The position numbers and the translations under genes were made by a program. From an uncultured Lachnospiraceae bacterium (GTDB lineage: Bacteria > Bacillota > Clostridia > Lachnospirales > Lachnospiraceae): 36,972 bases of DNA. Below, in pieces: positions 1 through 5,386 of the stretch (positions within the stretch are counted from its first letter, which is position 1; each line of letters starts with the position of its first letter). Location: positions 1-36,972 of the forward strand of contig CANQUA010000032.1 in NCBI GenBank assembly GCA_947626915.1. The letters are read 5' to 3'. The notes under the pieces were generated by a model. That model was not told where the DNA came from. It saw only the letters and a list, made by a program, of their open reading frames with translations, and ran no database searches.

Positions 1-73
1 ATGTTGAACCGCCGTATGCCGAACGGCATGTACTGGTGGTGTGAGAGGGCGGAGAGAATCCGCCCTACTCGAT
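1..73 (+). mobile_element. Group II intron 3' end (domains V and VI)
   Basis: The first 73 bases fold like the end of a bacterial group II intron. Domain V is a stem (about 8-20 with 25-40) closed by a GAAC tetraloop at 21-24, with the usual dinucleotide bulge on the 3' strand. Domain VI is a perfect 7-bp stem (47-53 with 59-65), followed by CTACTCGAT; A67 is a plausible branch-point adenosine. Compared with the Firmicutes domain V sequences I remember, there is one extra T near position 34, which may mark decay. The rest of the intron and any maturase gene would lie upstream of the window, so intactness cannot be judged. The exact 3' splice boundary (around 73) is inferred. Confidence 0.7.
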
Positions 74-109
74 TTGCTGTGCTGATGACCAAAACCGGAG
101 AGCGACTGC

Positions 110-195: not shown

Positions 196-1779
196 TTATG
201 GCTCTTCGCAGGGACCGTAAAGGATATCGAATACGTGCGCCTTTACGATATAAACGTCGTCGGGGTTCTCGTAGACTGCCGCCAGCCAGTCTCCGGCTTC
301 TCCCAGCATGTATTTGTCTTTCCCGGCAGGAGTGAACAGCTTGACGCGCCGGGTGAGCTGCCGGGCGTAAATGGAACCGCTGTCTTTGGAACGGCAGGCC
401 CTGGCCAACGGAAGGACCTGTCTGGATTCGCCGGTCACCAGATCGAACACCTTGGGATCGTATTCGCGGTGTTCGTCGCTGCCTGAAAACGTATAGGGCT
501 GATCGAGAATATCGTATTTGTGTTCAAAGGTTTCTTTGTCGATCGCATAGATCTCTTCTTCGGCGCCGATCATGATATAGCTGTCTTCGCTGGTTTTGGA
601 CTCGCGTTCTCCCTCCAGCATACGGAGCAGGATGCCGGTACCGGCCGGGAACAGGTCCGTGGAGGGGACGAAGCCGATCTGAACCGGTTTTTTCTGATAA
701 ACCTTTTCTGATGTCATATTTAGGTTACAGGTTGTACTATCCAGAATCAGAGTTTCTTTGAAATAATCGTTCATGCAGGCGGTCAGAACATGGCTGAACG
801 CTTTGCCGGGCCGGTCAGGCAGTTCTTCACCGGTCAGTTCCCGGTAGGCGAGGGCCAGGCTGTCTCCTTTCAGGTAGCCGCCGGCTTTGCGCTGGTGCCC
901 GCCGCCTTTGCCTAATTTCCTGTCCTTGGCGATGTAGAGGGCCAGTTCATCCGCGCGGATCTCCTTGATGCAGCTGCGGACGGAGAATTTGGCGCCGCCG
1001 CCCAGTACGCAGAAGACGATGCAGGCGTCTACCACATCCACTTCCACCAGCAGATCGCTGATGATGCCCAGGATATTGGGATCGCAGGATTCTGCTTCTG
1101 CGATGGCATAGCCGTAGTCCTCGTGAAAATCGTAATTGGCCAGTGCGCGGCTGACGATTCCCAGTTCCTTCCGGGACAGATTGGAATTCTGCAGCAGGGT
1201 GACGCTGCTTTGACTGATTTTCAGGGTGTCCCGCACTTCCTTGTCCAGAGGATGGGAGATCTCCTGGAAGCGGCCGGTATCCATATAGAGACCGTAATAA
1301 AGAGCCGTCGCCAGCTTCTGGTTTTCGTTGACCGGATAACCGGCGTCTGTCAGAAGCTGCCACAGAACCGTGGAGCAGGAGCCGTAATTGCTCTGGATCA
1401 GCGTCATTTCCGGCGCGGGAGCGTGGGGAAGTTTGGAGATCCTGCGCAGGTCTGCTTCGTGGTGATCGATGATGGCGGCAGCGCGCCAGGAAAAGGACGT
1501 CACATTGCCCTCTCCCGGCTGGCAGTCTACGGTAATCAGCAGATCCGGCTCTTCAAGTTCGGCTGCATATTCCAGATTGAAAGGCTGCAGATATTCGACG
1601 AGACGCTTCAGATTGCTTTTCTGAATCGGGTTTCGGCCGCCGTAAACGGTGCGGGGCGTTTTGCCCTGCTCAGTCAGCCAGACGGAGAGGGCGTAACTGC
1701 TGGCGATCGCGTCGGCGTCCGGGTCGTCGTGGCATTGGATCACAATATTCTCGTAAGGCAGAAGGTCCTGGAGTTTCAT
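196..1779 (-). CDS. DHH/DHHA1 phosphoesterase with C-terminal extension
   Basis: Predicted Mn-dependent phosphoesterase of the DHH superfamily (NrnA/GdpP-type core), a family that cleaves short RNAs, pAp or cyclic dinucleotides. Visible motifs: H17-DDPDAD-23 (motif I), D85 in TVD (motif II), D105-H106-H107 (motif III), YMDTGRF with D167 (motif IV), and a GGGH motif near 293 typical of DHHA1. The protein is 527 aa, whereas NrnA-like enzymes are about 320 aa. The extra ~190 residues end in a GDWLA...DVYIV...F...Y module (about 490-523) whose function I do not know. The ATG at 1779 has GGAGG ten bases upstream and overlaps the preceding RyR gene by 4 bp, so the two are probably translationally coupled. 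Substrate is unknown; an off-switch role for a nucleotide messenger is inferred from context only. Confidence 0.85.
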   Translation of the reverse strand: MKLQDLLPYENIVIQCHDDPDADAIASSYALSVWLTEQGKTPRTVYGGRNPIQKSNLKRLVEYLQPFNLEYAAELEEPDLLITVDCQPGEGNVTSFSWRAAAIIDHHEADLRRISKLPHAPAPEMTLIQSNYGSCSTVLWQLLTDAGYPVNENQKLATALYYGLYMDTGRFQEISHPLDKEVRDTLKISQSSVTLLQNSNLSRKELGIVSRALANYDFHEDYGYAIAEAESCDPNILGIISDLLVEVDVVDACIVFCVLGGGAKFSVRSCIKEIRADELALYIAKDRKLGKGGGHQRKAGGYLKGDSLALAYRELTGEELPDRPGKAFSHVLTACMNDYFKETLILDSTTCNLNMTSEKVYQKKPVQIGFVPSTDLFPAGTGILLRMLEGERESKTSEDSYIMIGAEEEIYAIDKETFEHKYDILDQPYTFSGSDEHREYDPKVFDLVTGESRQVLPLARACRSKDSGSIYARQLTRRVKLFTPAGKDKYMLGEAGDWLAAVYENPDDVYIVKAHVFDILYGPCEEP

Positions 1780-2078
1780 TTTTGGGTTTCCTCCTTTGGC
1801 GTAATGGTATAACCGAGCTTCAGGATCAGGCGGATGGTTTCCAGCGCCGTATTGCGGTCGTATTCCTGCTCGCTGTCGGGCAGTTCCTCGTAAGGGATCA
1901 GGCAGGGGGTGGTCTTTTCCAGGTCGTTCCGGACCGGTCCGTAGACCCAGCCTTCCCGAATCCGCCCCGCGGACCAGTTTTCATGGACGTTGAGGGCCAG
2001 TTTTTCGGTCAGTTCCAGAAGCTCTTCCGGCAGCTTGACGCCGCTGGTGTCGATGGGATGAGGCACATATTCTTTCAT
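1776..2078 (-). CDS. RyR-domain protein, stand-alone
   Basis: A 100-aa protein that is almost entirely one RyR domain (the repeat first named in ryanodine receptors). Diagnostic features in order: PHPIDTSGVKLP near the N-terminus, LALNVHENWSAGRI with the conserved N-x-H-E-x-W, GWVYGP, then LIPYEELP and a C-terminal helix ending LGYTI. Prokaryotic RyR domains are believed to bind small ligands, possibly nucleotide-related, and recur in predicted conflict or sensing proteins; the ligand here is unknown. It sits between the large nuclease-like gene and the DHH gene with 4-bp overlaps on both sides. The start has GGAGG eight bases upstream. No membrane segment or catalytic motif is visible. Confidence 0.88.
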   Translation of the reverse strand: MKEYVPHPIDTSGVKLPEELLELTEKLALNVHENWSAGRIREGWVYGPVRNDLEKTTPCLIPYEELPDSEQEYDRNTALETIRLILKLGYTITPKEETQK

Positions 2079-5053
2079 TTCTCAGATTCCTCCATGATCT
2101 GTTTTAATTTTTTCCCAATATTGCGGATATCTTCTTCGCCGGAGATCGTGATGATGTTCATCAGGCGTCCTCTGGCTTTCTGCATGTTATTATTATCCTG
2201 ATAGCTGGTCTTGACGCCGTATGTATTGGCGATCAGCACTTTCTTGACGCCGATGCCGAACCGGCCGGCCAGGCTGTCCAGCTTGTAGTAGAAATTCTGG
2301 TCCAGTTCCAGCCGGGCCTTACATTCGATAATCATGGACCGGAACCCTTTGGTCATGACGCAGTCCAGTTCGTTCCTTACGCCTCCCGCTTCCCATTTGA
2401 ATTCGTAACCGCATAGGATATCGTCGAAATAGCCCAGTTTACAGGCCTCGAAATAGGTGTAAACCTCCAGAATTTCACCCGCTTTTGTCAATAGGTTACG
2501 CATTTTCACGGAAGGGTACCGCAGGGAAACCGCGTCTCCGTCGATCTGAAGCTCCGTGATGAAGCCCTTGGCCTGGAGTCCGTTCAGCAGCCTGCGGTAT
2601 TCATTCATGCGGTAAAACCGGGTGTTTAGCGGCAGATTGCGGACGGTGAAGCAGTCCGGGTCTCCCCGGCGTTCGAAATCTTCTCCCAGCGTACCGCACA
2701 GATTGTTCCAGCATCCCACGGCCGCAGAGAAGCTGAGACCGACCGCGTCCCCGGTGTAAATGCGCCAGAGGTCCTGGTATTCCGCGGCAAAGTCGGGATA
2801 ATGGAACCGGCAGTCTTCCGCATTCATCAGAGAGAACATGTCCTCTACCCGCATATAGGAATGGTCGTGGATATAATGCAGGTAGCTGCACCGGCTGTCG
2901 TGGTGGAAAAGGCGGCCGGCAGCGTCAAATTCGAAATAAGGGAAGCGTTCCGCCATCATTCCGACAAAGGCTGCGTTGGCGCGGCTGGCGGCGAACAGAG
3001 GATTCGTCCCGTCAAAAAGCTGGACGCCCTGCTCGGAAAGCTTCCTGGCGAGAAGCGGCAGGGGTTCTTCTCCGCCGTCCCAGTCCAGGATCTCAAAGGA
3101 TAAGGGAAGCTGGCGGGTCAGTTCGTTCAGTTTGTCGGTCAGGTCTTTCCGTCTCTTCGCTTCCTGCCTGGGATTTCCGGACGCATTGCCCGAAAACAGA
3201 AGCAGCAGATGCAGGCGGCAGCGGATCCGCCGGGAATCGAAGTAACCGCCCAGGGCCAGCAGTTTCCGCCGCAGCAGTCCCAGGTCGGAGCGGCGGTCGA
3301 AACAGTAGAGGTAGGTGATCCGGCCCGGATGCAGCACCGTGGCGGAAGCGGTGTTTCGGAAAACGATATCGCTGCCGCCGTCCCTGTCCTGGGCCAGGTC
3401 GAGGGCCATGGCCAGATGGGGAGACTCGCGCCGCGTGAGAATGAAGGGGATCTGCCGCACCAGGATCACGTCCAGATTTTTGTAGTCCCGGTAGAGGCTG
3501 GATTCGACCGCCGGGAAAAAATCCAGCCGGATCCTGCGGATGCTTTCGCGGATCCTGGCCCGGGCGGTTTCGCCCAGTTGTTCATCGTTTTCTGCCGCCG
3601 AAAGCAGCAGCTCCTCGCAGCGGCTGTATTGGCGGGAATATCCGCTCTCTTCATCCAGGATATTTTTCAGGCACAGACAGAAGCGCCGGTATTCCAGAAG
3701 CGTCGGTTCTCCTGCGCCGGAAAGCAGTTCCGCCAGCCGGGCGGGTTCGCCGTTTTCCATGGGGCGGGCGGACCGGAATTCCAGGGTATAACGGCGGAAG
3801 CGGCGGTGCAGTTCCAGGGACATGCGGTCCAGCGGGTCCAGCGCCGCGTCGGCCGCGCAGGGAGAATTCCAGGCAGCGTAATGGTTCCGGGTGTAGGCGT
3901 CTTCAAGGAGGGGCGCGTCCTCGCTGCCGAAGCAGATGCAGGGGTGAAGTTTCAGGACCGGATCGTTTACGCGGCCGGTCTTGATGCAATGGTCATAGTC
4001 CGTAAGGGGCCGCCAGCCCGACGTGACTTTCTCCAGAACCCAGCGCCGGTGTTCCAGAGCGGCCATCTGCCGAAGGACGCCCGGATCGCGCTGCAGCGCC
4101 TGTTCGAACCGTTCCGCTGCGGAGTCCAGACGTTCCCAGGTGTCGCCGGCTGATTCCGCCGTTTGGAGCAGGATGCCGAAGCTGGACAGCTTGTAGGGGA
4201 GCGACAGGGCGTAGGAGATGGAAGAAAGCCGGTTATAGGGAATCGCGAAGGTTTTCCGTGCGTTTTCCGGATCCAGGTTGCCCCCGCCCATCCAGAGCAA
4301 ATGGGTACAGAAAGCCATACGTTCCAGCTGGGGGTTGCCGCTCATTTGCTCCTGACCGGTACAGACCGGAACCGGACGGCACAGAGATCCGCCGTTTTCC
4401 GGCTCCGGCGCAGGCAGCCCATGGGAAATGGGCCCGCCAGAGAAATGCGGATCCATGTCCTGACCGGCCGTTTCTTCCGGTGAAAGGATCAGATAGTTGA
4501 CGCAGCAGCGGTTGTCTAAAAGCGCGGCGGTTTCGGAGAAAAGCGCGGCCAGTTCGCGGCCGAAGCGTCCGTCTTCCTCCGACAGAAAAATATAATGGAC
4601 ATGTTCCTGGTCAAGGGCTGTCAAAAGGATCTCTTCCGCGATGGCCTGATTGTGTTCCGGGAGGCCGGGACGAAAACTGTGTTCCGGTCCGGGGATTGCC
4701 AGAAATGTCAGGAACGCGTACGGCAGGTCCGGCGATCCGGCCATGGAACCGTTTACATCCACAAATTGCTCCAGGGCCGGCCGGTCAGCCAGGTAGGTCT
4801 GCCGGTCGCTGTCGGGATCCTGCGAAAAAACGGCGATATGGAGACTGTGCCCCCGCATTTGTCCGGCCTGCAGGCACAGGTCGATGAACTGCGCGGCGTA
4901 AGGATCAAAGCCGATCACCATAACATTCAGATTTTGTTCCCCCTCCGGAATCCAGAGGTACAGCGGATTTTCGTACAGCAGCCTCTGCATGGCGGCTGTA
5001 ACCTGTATCATCCGCATATCGTCTGTAACCTGCGAAGGTGTAGTAGGTTTCAT
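2075..5053 (-). CDS. Rossmann/RyR/CARF-like protein with Card1-type PD-(D/E)xK nuclease end
   Basis: A 992-aa multidomain protein. Residues ~43-190 look Rossmann-like: beta strand VMVIGFD followed by a helix, then LHIAVFS and YIFLSEEDGRFG. Residues ~325-375 look RyR-like, with LEHRRW, GWRPLTDYD and LHPC. The middle (~535-735) has strand-rich segments and a DGTNPLFAASRANAAF stretch at ~678, placed like the TGGTK segment of DUF1887/Card1 CARF domains. The end (~865-960) has a PD-(D/E)xK signature: E near 866, NELD with D897, and IIECK with E910 and K912. Card1/Can2 proteins are cyclic-oligoadenylate-activated nucleases of type III CRISPR systems; no CRISPR array or cas gene is in this window. 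The nuclease end is the firmest call, the CARF-like middle the least sure. The start has GGGGAGG just upstream. First gene of the three-gene operon. Confidence 0.75.
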   Translation of the reverse strand: MKPTTPSQVTDDMRMIQVTAAMQRLLYENPLYLWIPEGEQNLNVMVIGFDPYAAQFIDLCLQAGQMRGHSLHIAVFSQDPDSDRQTYLADRPALEQFVDVNGSMAGSPDLPYAFLTFLAIPGPEHSFRPGLPEHNQAIAEEILLTALDQEHVHYIFLSEEDGRFGRELAALFSETAALLDNRCCVNYLILSPEETAGQDMDPHFSGGPISHGLPAPEPENGGSLCRPVPVCTGQEQMSGNPQLERMAFCTHLLWMGGGNLDPENARKTFAIPYNRLSSISYALSLPYKLSSFGILLQTAESAGDTWERLDSAAERFEQALQRDPGVLRQMAALEHRRWVLEKVTSGWRPLTDYDHCIKTGRVNDPVLKLHPCICFGSEDAPLLEDAYTRNHYAAWNSPCAADAALDPLDRMSLELHRRFRRYTLEFRSARPMENGEPARLAELLSGAGEPTLLEYRRFCLCLKNILDEESGYSRQYSRCEELLLSAAENDEQLGETARARIRESIRRIRLDFFPAVESSLYRDYKNLDVILVRQIPFILTRRESPHLAMALDLAQDRDGGSDIVFRNTASATVLHPGRITYLYCFDRRSDLGLLRRKLLALGGYFDSRRIRCRLHLLLLFSGNASGNPRQEAKRRKDLTDKLNELTRQLPLSFEILDWDGGEEPLPLLARKLSEQGVQLFDGTNPLFAASRANAAFVGMMAERFPYFEFDAAGRLFHHDSRCSYLHYIHDHSYMRVEDMFSLMNAEDCRFHYPDFAAEYQDLWRIYTGDAVGLSFSAAVGCWNNLCGTLGEDFERRGDPDCFTVRNLPLNTRFYRMNEYRRLLNGLQAKGFITELQIDGDAVSLRYPSVKMRNLLTKAGEILEVYTYFEACKLGYFDDILCGYEFKWEAGGVRNELDCVMTKGFRSMIIECKARLELDQNFYYKLDSLAGRFGIGVKKVLIANTYGVKTSYQDNNNMQKARGRLMNIITISGEEDIRNIGKKLKQIMEESEK

Positions 5054-5085: not shown

Positions 5086-5114
5086 ATTATAAGAGATAAT
5101 CCGGGGAAAGTCCA
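5086..5114 (-). promoter_or_regulatory. Putative sigma-A promoter for the RyR/nuclease operon
   Basis: On the minus strand a perfect TATAAT (-10, at 5086-5091) is preceded by TGGACT (-35, at 5109-5114) with a 17-bp spacer. It lies about 33 bp upstream of the start codon of the 992-aa protein. The -35 matches the consensus at four of six positions. Confidence 0.5.
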
Positions 5115-5361: not shown

Positions 5362-5386
5362 GTTGGTGACAAGGAGGGAAGTGCAG

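Follow-up and report, generated by a model that had tools for sequence, protein, structure and literature searches.

A RyR-linked, Card1-like nuclease locus in an uncultured Lachnospiraceae bacterium: a candidate signal-triggered defence system

The described systems closest to the locus presented here are the Card1/Can2 nucleases, Thoeris, the NrnA-type phosphoesterases and the phage protein RyDEP. Card1 and Can2 (DUF1887) of type III CRISPR show the order found in the C-terminal part of the long protein P0001, namely CARF-like, winged-helix-like and PD-(D/E)xK, with an active site made of E and D plus an ExK motif. In Thoeris, an ADPR-type signal made by a TIR protein serves an effector, and effectors of the ThsA type carry SIR2-SLOG, TM-macro and the like. 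NrnA-type DHH-DHHA1 phosphoesterases have their DHH and DHHA1 motifs in common with the protein P0003. RyDEP is an anti-Thoeris phage protein (PF02026; PMC13232231) of the same domain family as the small protein P0002; this May 2026 preprint reports that phage RyR proteins bind 2'/3'cADPR and can, in one case, cleave it, the ligand contacts of RyDEP being H75, W78, H100 and D117, and that six of eight RyDEP homologues bound signals and none cleaved them. Since cleavage is reported there for the founding RyDEP only, function is not readable from membership of the RyR family alone. The literature searched, which comprised open-licence papers, describes no RyR-nuclease system and no TIR-RyR-effector system.

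Layout and genomic setting of the locus

The window, that is, the whole stretch of 36,972 nucleotides analysed, is the entire contig C32 of a 3.18-Mb genome in 107 contigs, and its features of interest are collected in Table 1. The genes for P0001, P0002 and P0003 overlap by four bases at both joints (2075-2078 and 1776-1779, respectively), and the coordinates of the open reading frames confirm the three-gene, minus-strand arrangement given in a preliminary description of this DNA. The one promoter that it also proposed corresponds to an actual consensus match, but three such sites occur against 2.0 +/- 1.5 in shuffled sequence, and since this count is near that of the shuffles the site is by itself no evidence. 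The P0001 reading frame is not a product of chance, because a relative from an uncultured Roseburia genome (L020) matches its residues 19-911, with 51% identity in the best segment.

Table 1. Coordinates of the features discussed in the text
Feature	Positions	Strand	Description
P0001	2075-5053	minus	992 aa; Rossmann-type, RyR-like, helical linker, CARF-like, winged-helix-like and PD-(D/E)xK nuclease regions, in this order
P0002	1776-2078	minus	100 aa; stand-alone RyR protein
P0003	196-1779	minus	527 aa; DHH-DHHA1 protein
Promoter-like site, TGGACT-17-TATAAT	5086-5114	minus	upstream of P0001; consensus match only
End of repeated element	1-74		contig edge; 3 more copies in the genome
Rossmann-type region of P0001	4484-4936	minus	about residues 40-190, boundaries approximate
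Divergent RyR-like (R12) region of P0001	3779-4096	minus	about residues 320-425
CARF-like and winged-helix-like region of P0001	2489-3451	minus	about residues 535-855
PD-(D/E)xK nuclease of P0001	2105-2482	minus	residues 858-983; E895, D897, E910, K912

The G+C content of the three-gene block is little different from that of the remainder. Downstream, about 120 bases beyond P0003, the contig terminates in a repeat, so that any gene farther on is not visible. The repeat resembles a mobile element, and its further copies lie at C107:4-77, C22:4-79 and C87:1099-1172, two of them at contig starts; from its look, we guess that it is the 3' end of a group II intron, although Rfam gave zero matches when run with the whole window or with positions 1-400, and thus none for the repeat. 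Upstream, the opposite strand carries from position 5363 onwards genes that we read as the spoIIIA cluster, the adjoining one being presumably spoIIIAA. This neighbourhood would suit a housekeeping or stress role, in which the Rossmann-RyR part reads NAD(H), ATP or ADPR, the nuclease acts on host nucleic acid (for example, in sporulation or NAD stress), and the forms with a kinase or PP2C described below are ordinary signalling proteins. Against such a role, the block is absent upstream of spoIIIAA in all nine same-genus stretches that reach that point, and P0001 has zero matches in 25 same-genus genomes, which supports a patchy distribution of the three-gene system and an accessory character.

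A Card1-like nuclease behind a RyR-like sensor

The sole Pfam domain found in P0001 is Card1_endonuc (E 1.3e-9, over the cut-off), at the residues given for the nuclease in Table 1, and no effector domain of the ThsA type is among its Pfam matches. In PADLOC, 13 CARF-PDDEXK or Csx1 families match P0001, the best at E 5.8e-16 over residues 817-988, and no family matches P0002 or P0003. In a single comparison with 30 stand-alone proteins (330-460 aa) in which the P0001-type nuclease also occurs, a ten-member alignment of the C-terminal part aligns end to end (Prob 99.9, E 2.4e-32), and the CARF part alone also matches these DUF1887-type proteins (hhalign, E 4.6e-11; reversed control, 0.27); because of these two matches, the C-terminus of P0001 is, by sequence, a complete Card1/Can2-like unit. 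Against PDB sequences, the ten-member profile retrieves Can2 (7bdv, E 0.0023) and a DUF1887 protein (8bao, E 0.0059), VC1899 (1xmx) ranking at E 0.42, behind an unrelated chain at 0.17. AlphaFold models of the two halves of P0001, aligned with L020 only, are of low confidence (mean pLDDT 46.8 for the C-terminal and 43.9 for the N-terminal half), and none of the 1248 matches from a fold search with the latter reached E 0.001.

The matches to Can2/Card1-type families would also fit a CARF-like domain that binds cA4 or cA6 supplied in trans by type III CRISPR, with RyR as a regulator and the DHH protein degrading the cyclic oligoadenylate, and in two relatives, G260 and G351, Csm1 is indeed encoded at another place in the genome. 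Nevertheless, Csm1, the type III marker that the search covered, passes the cut-off in only two of 11 genomes with the system, and the own genome is not one of the two; its best Csm1 match reaches 38 bits against a cut-off of 170, in agreement with the earlier observation that no CRISPR or cas gene is linked to the locus. Lys99 of Can2 contacts cA4, according to its description (PMC7969007), and falls in TGGTK in the alignment, at a place where the family consensus has no Lys and members differ widely; this is soft evidence because the alignment is uncertain there. Supply of cyclic oligoadenylates in trans is, on balance, distinctly unlikely.

Upstream of the nuclease unit, Pfam finds zero matches in residues 1-458 of P0001 and nothing convincing in the sensor part of ten other members (best 0.022), two of the weak matches being to Rossmann-type NADP-binding families (best 0.043). 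The GxGxxG motif of the Rossmann-type region is kept in L053 (GFGSYG), L052 (GSGTYG) and L139 and is degenerate in P0001 (GFDPYA) and L020; the low-confidence AF2 model shows alternating strand and helix in this region, and one cousin, L133, has a sub-threshold Pfam TrkA_N match (7.3e-4), a Rossmann likeness that counts in favour of the housekeeping reading. The RyR-like region is called from conserved residues and from a chain of profiles. E334, H335, W338, G346, H370 and C372, among others, are invariant in all 11 aligned members, and D409, a possible fourth ligand residue, varies. Compared directly with free RyR domains, the region matches weakly (E 9e-5, Prob 59; reversed, 0.27), a result to be read beside a negative control in which the Rossmann part of the sensor alignment gives E 0.0014; the gap is bridged by L133, which matches both PF02026 (26.9 bits against a cut-off of 27.4) and the P0001 sensor family (3e-23). 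Thus, of the RyR-like and Card1-type protein of the preliminary description, the nuclease is retrieved by Pfam over the cut-off and the RyR-like part is without a Pfam match, this part of P0001 being likely, from the conserved residues and profiles, a divergent RyR domain, and H335, W338 and H370 being likely counterparts of the ligand contacts given for RyDEP in the preprint.

The RyR nature of P0002, in turn, is borne out by Pfam (PF02026, E 3.9e-33, over the cut-off) and by matches to 3nrt ('putative ryanodine receptor') and to animal RyR chains. The spacing of the RyDEP contacts (0/+3/+25/+42) fits free bacterial RyR domains exactly, and places H32, W35, T57 and D74 of P0002 at these positions; three of the four contact residues are therefore kept (His/Trp/Asp, compared with His/Trp/His in P0001), T57 standing where RyDEP has H100, a phosphate-coordinating His. 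Unlike RyDEP, the RyR proteins here are chromosomal and fused to or paired with a nuclease, which makes the roles of receptor and modulator more likely for them than phage counter-defence.

A query with P0001 alone gives matches at E 0.001 in 18 of 195 relatives, counting the own genome, and among these 195 only G117, besides the own genome, matches over more than about 200 residues. With profiles, matches at 1e-8 occur in 25 of 392 genomes from the order; nine of these, with the own genome among them, match in the sensor part, and the others in the nuclease only. The profiles further retrieve 24 of 391 genomes of the class at 1e-6, and two of 398 genomes of the phylum, both from the own family. 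A pattern scan of genome contigs, the sole search that extended into other phyla, returned one relative, L020, and plasmids, phages and viral contigs held no relative of P0001; within the samples searched, the sensor family was thus found confined to the own class, presumably Clostridia.

Sensor and nuclease are fused in 13 loci (the window, L020, L051-L058 and L128-L130). A kinase precedes the sensor in ten of these by the kinase profile (PF00069 confirmed in 5/5 kinase parts examined), the window, L020 and L058 having none, and six kinase forms (L052-L055, L059 and L128), one of them cut off before the nuclease, have a gene for PP2C immediately upstream; PP2C_2 was confirmed in both phosphatase genes examined. 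In G803 (L139, 7090-10260), the sensor (Rossmann-RyR, 611 aa) and the CARF-nuclease (408 aa) are divergent neighbouring genes, and because the two halves are neighbours there, they appear to form a working pair; the 611-aa sensor has, by eye, apparent membrane segments. Five loci (L133-L135, L140 and L141) hold Rossmann-RyR proteins of 637-721 aa with no nuclease or TIR neighbour seen, which could be ligand-gated membrane effectors or channels and which also speak for a housekeeping role.

Several further observations concern these neighbourhoods. A second Rossmann-RyR protein is encoded immediately next to the fused gene in L056 (10910-13195), L057 (6010-8322) and L058 (10474-13365). An unnamed family of 141-211 aa recurs in L051 (3818-4243; no Pfam match), L056 (1071-1664), L057 (14325-14903) and L129 (6379-7014). 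DUF4062 proteins, a possible alternative partner to TIR, occur near sensor or free RyR genes (L051, 9071; L137, 4745; L145, 9577). In L051 (3-3809; G245), the sensor-nuclease gene contains an in-frame TAG, and this copy may be broken.

A free RyR gene lies directly 3' of the sensor in six of 27 loci (the window, L053, L054, G197, L128 and L132). This recurrence, together with the tight P0001/P0002 overlap, is what a toxin-antitoxin-like pair would show, with P0001 as the toxin, P0002 as a protein antitoxin acting by homotypic RyR pairing and P0003 as unrelated cargo, and the P0003 profile indeed finds no such DHH gene beside any of the 26 other sensor loci fetched. However, 21 of the 27 loci have no free RyR gene in that place (some being cut by contig ends), and the putative ligand-contact residues, needless for direct pairing, are kept in both RyR regions, so that an antitoxin role for P0002 seems quite improbable.

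TIR genes, the DHH protein and the candidate signal

TIR genes lie within 7 kb in eight of the 27 sensor loci, a total of 13 genes over 250.1 kb, as counted with a TIR profile at 1e-8, two loci without an anchor (L131 and L138) and three with less than 2 kb of flank (L054, L059 and L133) being scored as misses. All 13 pass the Pfam TIR_2 cut-off, and Pfam adds a TIR gene in L143 and a second one in L128. The expected number is 0.24, from a background of 28 TIR_2 matches, linked genes included, over the roughly 29.2 Mb (from rounded sizes) of 11 genomes, with Poisson values of 1e-18, or 6e-11 at about four times the background density; these figures are guides only, given the non-independence of the loci and the tendency of defence genes to cluster, and the TIR clustering may partly reflect defence islands. 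As a control, ten stretches from the same genus that adjoin spoIIIAA (79.8 kb in all, with nine extending upstream) gave no match to any of the profiles. All whole-genome TIR_2 matches of G260 (two) and G197 (three) are within 7.5 kb of the sensor locus, and two of the eight in G485 lie near its locus. In L132 (G756), sensor, RyR and TIR genes overlap as one operon, and in L136 (G739) sensor and TIR genes overlap by four bases. Together with the patchy occurrence, this enrichment counts against the housekeeping or stress role, which is judged unlikely.

The linkage is partial: 19 of the 27 sensor loci have no TIR gene by profile, six of them (L057, L130, L134, L137, L139 and L141) despite 12-14 kb of flank, and among the nuclease-bearing loci five of 13 (L053, L055, L056, L128 and L129) have one within 7 kb and eight have none. 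No TIR gene was found in the 37-kb window, and the three TIR_2 matches of the own genome are all on other contigs. No RyR-type neighbour was found for TIR genes of the own genome and G493 in the stretches L146-L149. Two candidates were set aside: a TIR gene running off contig C59, considered as the missing neighbour of P0003, was rejected since visual inspection finds TIR-gene sequence, and not the repeat, up to the end of that contig, and a 289-aa neighbour in L131, first taken as TIR-like, has no Pfam match and was left out of the counts.

P0003 is a predicted DHH-DHHA1 phosphoesterase, as the preliminary description held: DHH passes the Pfam cut-off (E 4.4e-12), DHHA1 falls just under it (E 8.7e-5, 23.4 bits against 25.9), and QCHDDPDADA (15), VDC (84), DHH (105), YMDTG (165) and GGGH (292) are presumably the catalytic motifs. 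Its best structure-sequence match is 4ls9 (E 0.00036), NrnA structures matching weakly (E 0.0016 and worse), and a C-terminal extension of about 200 aa makes it longer than the NrnA-type proteins. Among 145 relatives, 49 match P0003 at 1e-10; 26 of the matches (own included) span nearly the whole protein, the others mostly residues 1-310 only. The other 25 near-full-length relatives come from 24 genomes, and in ten of the 18 loci fetched for them TIR genes lie within 7 kb (12 genes by TIR profile; 3/3 examined were confirmed by Pfam), a further difference from NrnA. In two of the 18, both from the same genus (L170 and L171; G007 and G021), a free RyR gene adjoins the P0003-like gene, and there a TIR gene comes next past the DHH gene, convergent with it. 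Because the 24 genomes hold no long match to P0001, the pairing of P0001 with the DHH gene is seen in the window only. Hence, of the three-gene linkage, P0001-RyR and RyR-DHH recur and P0001-DHH does not (0 of the 26 other sensor loci), so that part of what would count against the preliminary description, namely homologues that mostly occur apart, is observed; P0001 and P0003 each seem to point to TIR through their own relatives.

The DHH-TIR gene pair is itself recurrent (L170-L186, ten of 18 fetched), overlapping in L173 and L174, and is possibly a TIR system of its own (L173, 6647-11282; L174, 6947-11537; L178, 4034-8458); several of the linked TIR proteins are of about 1000 aa, one having NPCBM domains and another beta-propeller-like repeats. 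In L176, a 435-aa protein between DHH and TIR (nuclease profile, 2e-5) proved to be an AAA_14/DUF4143 ATPase and was left out of the counts. In G260, a gene between those for RyR and TIR encodes another kind of DHH-superfamily protein, which combines DHH-DHHA2 with CBS and DRTGG.

A working model and its relation to known systems

The locus probably encodes an accessory, anti-phage, signal-triggered nuclease system. Because phage RyR proteins bind 2'/3'cADPR and can cleave it, according to the preprint, and because TIR genes recur beside both sensor and DHH genes, the likely signal is ADPR- or NAD-derived rather than a cyclic oligoadenylate. The logic first proposed for this locus is thus kept in part: the sequence profiles support the nuclease as effector, sensing of a nucleotide by the RyR part is probable, and the cyclic oligoadenylate gives way to the likelier ADPR- or NAD-derived signal. 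Upon infection, a TIR enzyme would make an ADP-ribose-type nucleotide from NAD+, to be bound by the RyR pocket (H335, W338 and H370), perhaps with the Rossmann region; the ligand-bound sensor would then release the CARF-winged-helix-nuclease unit, with cutting of nucleic acid and arrest of the phage or the cell. P0002 may bind or cleave the same ligand and P0003 may hydrolyse it or a product, the two together setting the threshold and resetting the system. The kinase/PP2C layer of the relatives is missing at the window locus. The whole chain, from a TIR-made ADPR-type nucleotide to an active nuclease with P0002 and P0003 limiting the signal, is a tentative reading, and an RyR-regulated nuclease with a nucleotide ligand is, as a more modest claim, the more credible. 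It is possible, if somewhat doubtful, that these proteins represent a previously undescribed class of immune receptor, in which a host RyR domain senses TIR-made (cyclic) ADP-ribose and activates a Card1-type nuclease, with the free RyR as sponge or glycosidase and the TIR-linked DHH protein as eraser.

If true, host receptors built on the RyR domain would reveal the purpose of this domain in bacteria, provide a parallel to the suggested sensing of cADPR by animal ryanodine receptors, and offer a model in bacteria of how the ryanodine receptor R12 region senses a ligand. TIR/NAD signals and CARF-type nucleases, to our knowledge usually described apart, would be joined in one system.

Regarding the known systems, the locus differs from Card1/Can2 of type III CRISPR in that the nuclease of P0001 sits behind a Rossmann/RyR-like sensor (and, in most fused relatives, a kinase as well), in that the own genome is without Csm1 over the cut-off, and in that the cA4-contact stretch is apparently not conserved. 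With Thoeris it has in common the TIR neighbours that recur in relatives of P0001, several of which also match Pfam ThsB_TIR; unlike Thoeris, it has no TIR gene visible in the window, its sensor is RyR/Rossmann-like, its effector is a Card1-like nuclease, and its signal is a predicted one. Judged by sequence, P0001 belongs to the DUF1887 nucleases and P0002 to the RyR family, and the locus is, on present evidence, neither Thoeris nor type III CRISPR. In its mode of action, the three-gene system may resemble a Thoeris- or Card1-type pathway and, because some relatives adjoin TIR genes, it gives the impression of a new branch among the signal-triggered defences against viruses.
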